Notes under the pieces: model-generated
Seen by the model: the letters and a program-made list of their open reading frames with translations, nothing else
The model's database searches: none
What the model was told of the DNA's origin: nothing
Translations under genes and position numbers: made by a program
NCBI GenBank assembly: GCA_902629215.1
Contig: CACOQC010000001.1
Coordinates: 1 to 64,000, forward strand
Direction of reading: 5' to 3'
Source of the DNA: an uncultured Pelagibacteraceae bacterium
GTDB lineage: Bacteria; Pseudomonadota; Alphaproteobacteria; Pelagibacterales; Pelagibacteraceae
DNA length: 64,000 nucleotides
Shown: in pieces, positions 52,751-53,789 of the stretch
How positions within the stretch are numbered: position 1 is the stretch's first letter
How the letters are laid out: every line of letters begins with the position of its first letter

Positions 52751-53680
52751 ATGAAAATTTTAGGAGTAGGTAATGCAATAGTAGATGTTATTTGTAAGGT
52801 TAGTGATGAATTTATTGCAGAAAATAATTTAGTAAAAAGCAATATGAAATTAATTTTTGATGAAAATGAATTTAAAAAATTATTTTCAAATTTAAAAATA
52901 GAGAAAACTATTTCAGGTGGATCAGTTGCTAATTCTATAGTTGGATTATCCCAACTTGGCAATAAAGTTGGATTTATAGGTAAAATCTCTGATGACGATT
53001 TAGGAAAAAAGTATGAAATGGGACTCAAAGATGAAAATGTTGACTTTGTTTATTCCAAAAAAAAAGAAGCTCTCCCCACAGGAACTTGTTTAATTTTAAT
53101 AACACCTGACTCAGAAAGAACTATGTGCACATTTCTTGGAACTGCTGGAAAAATTAATGAAAACGATATCAATGTCGATTCCATAAAAAATAGTGAAATT
53201 ACATTTTTAGAAGGTTATTTGTGGGATGAAGGTGATCCAAAGAAAGCATTTGATAAAGCAATTAATAATTCAAAAAAAGTTGCAATGTCATTATCAGATA
53301 AATTTTGTGTTGATAGACATAAAACTCATTTTTTGGAATTAATTAAAAATAAATTAGATATTACTTTTGCAAACGAAGATGAAATTACATCTCTTATAGA
53401 TACAAAAAATTTTAGTGAAGTAATTGAATTTGCCAAACAAATAAAAAAACTTATAATTATTACAAGAGGTGAAAAAGGAGCAATCTCAATAAAAGGAGAT
53501 GAAATTAACGAAATTACTGCAAAGAAAAATTTAAATATAATTGATTTGACTGGTGCAGGTGATTTGTTTGCAGCAGGCTTTCTTCATGGATTAATAAACA
53601 ATTTATCAAATGACTTATGTTTGGAAAAAGGAACTGAAATGTCATCCAAAATAATTCAACAAATAGGTGCTAGATTTTAA
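52751..53680 (+). CDS. PfkB-family sugar/nucleoside kinase
   Basis: GGSVANSIVGLSQLG; IDLTGAGDLFAAGFLHG. Confidence 0.93.
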   Translation: MKILGVGNAIVDVICKVSDEFIAENNLVKSNMKLIFDENEFKKLFSNLKIEKTISGGSVANSIVGLSQLGNKVGFIGKISDDDLGKKYEMGLKDENVDFVYSKKKEALPTGTCLILITPDSERTMCTFLGTAGKINENDINVDSIKNSEITFLEGYLWDEGDPKKAFDKAINNSKKVAMSLSDKFCVDRHKTHFLELIKNKLDITFANEDEITSLIDTKNFSEVIEFAKQIKKLIIITRGEKGAISIKGDEINEITAKKNLNIIDLTGAGDLFAAGFLHGLINNLSNDLCLEKGTEMSSKIIQQIGARF

Positions 53681-53681
53681 T

Positions 53682-53789
53682 TTATTTTTTTTTTCTTTTA
53701 AAACTGCCTTTTCCTTTTTTAGGTTTAATTACTCGTGGCTTATATTTTTTATTAAATAAATCTTTGGCGTATATATTTTTTTTTCTCAA
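53682..53789 (-). CDS. Putative ArfA-like alternative ribosome-rescue factor (35 aa, TTG start), not in the ORF track
   Basis: Hand translation (M)RKKNIYAKDLFNKKYKPRVIKPKKGKGSFKRKKK*; matches the RVxxxKKGKGS(Y/F)xRKxK core of ArfA; TTG overlaps the TGA of the upstream gene. Confidence 0.6.
   Translation of the reverse strand: MRKKNIYAKDLFNKKYKPRVIKPKKGKGSFKRKKK

Follow-up and report, generated by a model that had tools for sequence, protein, structure and literature searches.

The locus studied here lies in a window of 64,000 nucleotides, which is the whole stretch of DNA analysed, and it raises the question of whether a very short reading frame at the end of a regulator gene is a gene at all and, if so, whether its product is an ArfA, the factor that frees stuck ribosomes. 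An earlier note had described a minus-strand ORF with the core RV..KKGKGSF.RK, a TTG start (53787-53789) overlapping the TGA stop of the upstream regulator (53786-53788), a run of nine A near the start and a run of ten A at the end. All of these features are present as described (Table 1).

Table 1. Features of the arfA locus and their coordinates in the window
Feature	Position	Strand	Details
arfA-like gene, 35 aa	53682..53789	-	TTG start, TAA stop; product (M)RKKNIYAKDLFNKKYKPRVIKPKKGKGSFKRKKK
RVIKPKKGKGSFKR core, residues 19-32	53694..53735	-	aligned to E. coli ArfA chains; K22, K24-S29 and R32 invariant
TTGA, shared by the start of arfA and the stop of the regulator	53786..53789	-	read from the sequence; 17 loci have an equivalent 4-nt overlap (ATGA/TTGA/GTGA), 13 a 1-nt overlap
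OmpR-type winged-helix regulator, 186 aa	53786..54346	-	PF00486, 42.9 bits; syntenic in relatives
adk, convergent downstream neighbour	52751..53680	+	ORF list; conserved convergent neighbour, ends 1 nt from the arfA stop

A lysine-rich reading frame may arise by chance in the A-rich end of a gene, and this one is indeed very A-rich, short and devoid of an ATG, while AAA accounts for 83% of the lysine codons in the family. Nevertheless, this explanation is refuted by conservation, and we give it practically no credence. The search of the whole 1.06 Mb genome with PF03889 returned one place only at E<=0.01 (E 6.0e-6), which is the ORF of the window. Its product scores 26.1 bits against the Pfam gathering cut-off of 25.5, so that the ArfA model test suggested by the earlier note came out positive, by a small margin. 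Matches to PF03889 were found in 47 of the 61 genomes of the genus (30 of the 61 scoring over the cut-off) and in 9 of the 10 that are nearly complete, and 79 of 94 sampled Pelagibacteraceae genomes carry a gene of the GKGS type. In an alignment of 24 SAR11 sequences (A1) 11 residues are invariant, the reading frame is kept across the genus, and the KKGKGS core is conserved between strains, with K24-S29 and R32 identical in all 24. Over 68 distinct core DNA sequences, pN/pS was 0.17 in frame as opposed to 1.13 and 2.84 in the shifted frames; therefore, selection acts on the protein, and these ratios point to strong purifying selection. Synteny kept in 80 loci, as well as the ATG that most relatives have at the same place, also speaks against a chance frame. 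The ORF is thus, on the evidence of its conservation, a genuine gene.

Regarding the start codon, the relatives have ATG at this position in 58 of 71 cases, TTG in 8 and GTG in 5, and this supports the TTG start of the window. Upstream of it the frame is open for two codons only, and another usable start is absent. We also considered the A-runs as a slippage or regulatory signal and rejected this, since runs of such length are to be expected from lysine codon usage: the longest runs had a mean of 9.0, against 9.5 expected from the lysine codons of neighbouring genes.

In almost every one of the 80 loci where the contig reaches far enough, the gene directly follows the regulator, and in most of the 80 it is followed by adk on the other strand and then by nth, dapB and dnaJ; other genes intervene between regulator and arfA in a few genomes (L097, L142, G061). 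The product of the adk neighbour we take to be a PfkB/adenosine-kinase-like sugar kinase. For the regulator of the window, a Pfam scan found the C-terminal DNA-binding domain only and no receiver domain. Among about 70 loci, regulator and arfA overlap by 4 nt in 17 and by 1 nt in 13, which are the most frequent arrangements, and by more in a further 27. Because the start/stop overlap is kept in most relatives, the translational coupling to the regulator that had been proposed is plausible. However, the tie is one-way: 10 Pelagibacter genomes without a GKGS arfA retain the regulator, which runs straight into adk and leaves no room for the gene. Therefore, arfA is a removable passenger of the regulator and not its obligate partner.

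Other arrangements were seen around these genes. In two SAR11 lineages (L253:4960-7437 and L255:4975-6560), a gene that we take to be photolyase-like precedes the ArfA relative, either directly or with one gene in between, the relative being the GKG-less form described below in G063 and the GKGS form in G061. The 3' ends of SAR11 arfA and adk face each other at a distance of 1 nt (53680-53682 in the window), and those of E. coli arfA and mscL overlap by 4 nt (L261:932-935), a likeness that is possibly due to chance in compact genomes, although antisense RNA is described as important for the E. coli pair (PMC10070815).

As for the identity of the product, we consider it very probable that the window ORF is a SAR11 arfA encoding a minimal ArfA, whose role in ribosome rescue we infer. 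Searched against the PDB, the A1 profile matched no chains other than those of ArfA (E 1.7e-6), with an alignment that is gap-free over 32 residues and reaches residue 43 of the E. coli protein; the single window sequence gave only E 0.05. The hhalign comparison of A1 with E. coli and alphaproteobacterial ArfA scored 61.4, and the maximum of 200 column shuffles was 16.6. ArfA is the only Pfam match of the window protein, which does not reach the cut-off of PF23876 (DUF7230) and is matched by no NCBIfam model. Its 35 residues contain no GGQ motif, and this excludes a hydrolase domain of its own of the ArfB type. For a tree, 35 residues carry too little signal.

Residue by residue, N5, L11, Y16, R19, V20 and K22 correspond to N14, L20, F25, R28, V29 and K31 of E. 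coli ArfA, and the basic mRNA-channel segment is present as KKGKGSF.RK, where E. coli has KKGKGSY.RK. The RVIKPKKGKGSFKR core would comprise the end of the strand on the RF2 side and this basic segment, whose E. coli counterpart sits in the mRNA channel. The change A18T inactivates E. coli ArfA; the Ala18 position aligns with K9, and the alanine is shifted by one residue towards the N-terminus (A8), which is also the case in other ArfA of alphaproteobacteria that pass the cut-off, e.g. L234 and L235. The strand Y16-K-P-R-V20 matches F-R-Q-R-V at E. coli 25-29, with mostly conservative variation (Y/F, K/R, R/K, V/I). In E. coli, the mid-region strand of ArfA pairs with RF2 213-217, and an N-terminal hydrophobic patch formed by Leu19, Leu24 and Phe25 binds Trp319 of RF2 (PMC5378476). 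These three positions are occupied by D10, K15 and Y16 in SAR11 ArfA, that is, in the patch only Phe25 is clearly kept (as Tyr), and an invariant leucine, L11, stands one residue after the Leu19 position.

Regarding the length, the SAR11 protein is shorter than that of E. coli genus-wide (34-42 aa vs 72), as the earlier note supposed for this one. It spans E. coli residues 10-44 approximately, its C-terminus being the equivalent of Lys44. According to a review (PMC8012679), the last 17-18 residues of E. coli ArfA are dispensable, 55-residue forms are active, a 40-residue form is inactive, and the structures resolve 46-48 residues. SAR11 ArfA would therefore sit near the lower length limit for an ArfA, because it ends at the Lys44 equivalent and the 40-residue E. 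coli form is dead.

We also made an inventory of the ribosome-rescue genes. The source genome has an alpha-tmRNA (227.9 bits) and SmpB (191.8 bits), and its RF2 (L263) keeps SPF, GGQ, Trp319 and Phe217, which are the residues described for ArfA/RF2 (PMC5378476), with Ile in place of Val198 of E. coli. RF1 was not found in this genome, which we put down to its completeness of 84%. A third PF00472 protein was found in none of the 147 Pelagibacterales genomes, the order having only two long ones, RF1 and RF2. ArfB is absent from these genomes, because none exceeds two such proteins and the search is able to detect ArfB: among 115 genomes sampled from the class as a control, 32 had at least three. 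Many alphaproteobacteria with small genomes also show only two PF00472 proteins; therefore, the lack of ArfB is not confined to SAR11.

With these data, two other readings of the protein can be weighed. One is a small basic ribosome- or RNA-binding protein that has the ArfA channel segment and another job without recruitment of RF2, e.g. in hibernating or protecting ribosomes. The best-kept part is in fact the lysine/glycine segment contacting 16S rRNA, and of the three residues that contact RF2 in E. coli, two have changed; however, the N-terminal N..A..L and Y-x-x-R-V are invariant or nearly so and align with ArfA without gaps, RF2 keeps its Trp319 and ArfB is missing, and we regard this reading as unlikely. 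The other is a factor of the ArfA lineage that has changed its partner to RF1 or to both release factors, like ArfT, which is also about 40 aa and provides a precedent (PMC8012679). The hydrophobic patch on which the RF2 dependence of E. coli ArfA rests has been retained only in part, but the RF2 of the source genome retains the Trp319 switch loop, which RF1 lacks, and such a change of partner seems to us unlikely as well.

For the preferred reading, a minimal ArfA acting with RF2, the following mechanism can be proposed. The 35-aa protein would bind ribosomes that have run to the 3' end of a broken mRNA and stalled there, and its lysine-rich KKGKGSF.RK tail would occupy the empty mRNA entry channel. 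The N-terminal part and the Y-K-x-R-V strand would recruit RF2 and open it, and then the GGQ loop of the opened RF2 would release the nascent chain.

The control of this gene probably differs from the E. coli one, where a 3' hairpin (RNase III) and the tail lead to a non-stop mRNA and to control by tmRNA, and are dispensable for activity. No 3' hairpin was found in SAR11 arfA: z averaged 0.34 across 71 loci and was 0.54 for the window region, whereas the E. coli gene gave -4.4; on these folding values an E. coli-like hairpin with control of the RNase III type was rejected for the window gene. The stop codon comes directly after the core, and the hydrophobic tail of E. coli ArfA is absent. Because the hairpin is absent and a natural stop follows the channel segment, we infer that synthesis of SAR11 ArfA is constitutive and does not depend on failure of trans-translation. 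It would be a standing back-up beside tmRNA-SmpB, not produced from non-stop mRNA and expressed by translational coupling with the regulator upstream, and would take over the part played by ArfB in other alphaproteobacteria.

Searching the order with A1 also gave weak matches in a second family and a third genus, which are proteins of the type NP.AK.LRTPKFK.RV...KK without the GKG. Several of them are placed in DUF7230 by Pfam, of which two reach its cut-off or exceed it and the others score lower. As judged by profile comparison, these GKG-less proteins are homologous to ArfA (score 55.0; maximum of 200 column shuffles 16.1). Among the 94 Pelagibacteraceae genomes, the GKGS form is present in 79, the GKG-less form in 7, neither in 8 and both in none; in the second family the GKG-less form occurs in 40 of 53 genomes. 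In the wider class PF03889 is rare, with matches in 10 of 289 genomes, two of them SAR11, and the GKG-less form is scattered. We suggest, as a possibility that falls a little short of even, that Pelagibacterales and other ArfB-less alphaproteobacteria use one ArfA superfamily of 35-50 aa in two interchangeable forms, the tail-less GKGS one and the GKG-less one (DUF7230 and relatives), and that the latter is an unrecognised ribosome-rescue factor, also found in phages.

GKG-less proteins of 35-47 aa (L223-L229, L247, L241, L242, L245, with the match close to the centre of each locus) were seen in other SAR11 and in alphaproteobacteria; their genes are often at the end of an operon and were not found to share a genome with the GKGS form. 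The complete or nearly complete Pelagibacter genomes G065, G073, G154, G071 and G084 have neither form, and at their loci (L283, L285, L287, L289, L292) regulator and adk are directly convergent.

Marine viral contigs contain many GKGS forms (68 loci). Host contamination as their source was rejected, and phages seem to bear their own arfA copies, because none of the 68 has host neighbours. In marine phages, ArfA may be extended at the N-terminus, e.g. by GKWDGRSR.SND.YR...DRIF, as was seen at L165, L170, L172, L179, L185, L200-L203 and L297:2489-2665, and in HTVC027P the gene comes just before that of the small terminase. Larger viral proteins, of about 120-145 aa (L187, L188, L192-L194, L175, L180, L181), have KPKKGKGSYTRK in mid-protein and STVNKAGNYTKP.MRKR.F at the C-terminus, and here a different phage protein may have the ArfA-like segment built into it. 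The match in Caulobacter phage Cr30 (L299:1501-1620) lies mostly in the unannotated gap between gp024 and gp023, and that in Roseobacter phage CRP-212 (L298:1501-1587) near the C-terminus of a very large protein, gp38.

SAR11 are among the most abundant bacteria of the ocean, and a common arfA together with the absence of ArfB changes the picture of ribosome rescue in streamlined cells. Furthermore, a natural ArfA of 35 residues shows how little of the protein might suffice, and the replacement of the GKGS form by the DUF form suggests a function, open to testing, for a family that has none assigned. What appears to be new is a tail-less, hairpin-less and regulator-overlapping form, placed within ArfA by its sequence, where ArfB is missing. 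We found no report of arfA in SAR11 chromosomes in the openly searchable literature. In a survey of more than 15,000 genomes, 2,022 of the 2,376 alphaproteobacteria had arfB, and arfA was listed for none (PMC11633108). The SAR11 gene thus appears to have been overlooked, although a pelagiphage copy was named ArfA in 2025, and its shortness and A-richness may have let it escape the nucleotide profiles of the survey.

Compared with known systems, SAR11 ArfA shares with E. coli ArfA (YhdL, PF03889) the gap-free ordered part, the KKGKGS(Y/F).RK and R-V core, a score that passes the cut-off and an RF2 with Trp319 in the genome. It differs in its 35 aa instead of 72, lacking the N-terminal 9 residues and anything past Lys44, in the missing hydrophobic tail and non-stop hairpin, in Leu19 and Leu24, which are not kept, and in the overlap of its gene with a regulator gene. 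The DUF7230-like set (PF23876) is profile-homologous to ArfA and replaces the GKGS arfA in other SAR11, whereas its members lack the GKG of KKGKGS and are absent from the window, and PF23876 does not match the window protein. The gp30 of pelagiphage HTVC027P, named ArfA in 2025 (PMC12753301), has the same core and is about 65% identical to the marine viral relative used as query; however, it has 58 aa and an N-terminal extension, and its gene adjoins the small terminase gene. Finally, BrfA of Bacillus and ArfT of Francisella, compared here by description, resemble it as short basic proteins recruiting release factors, but are described as being of independent evolutionary origin (PMC8012679).
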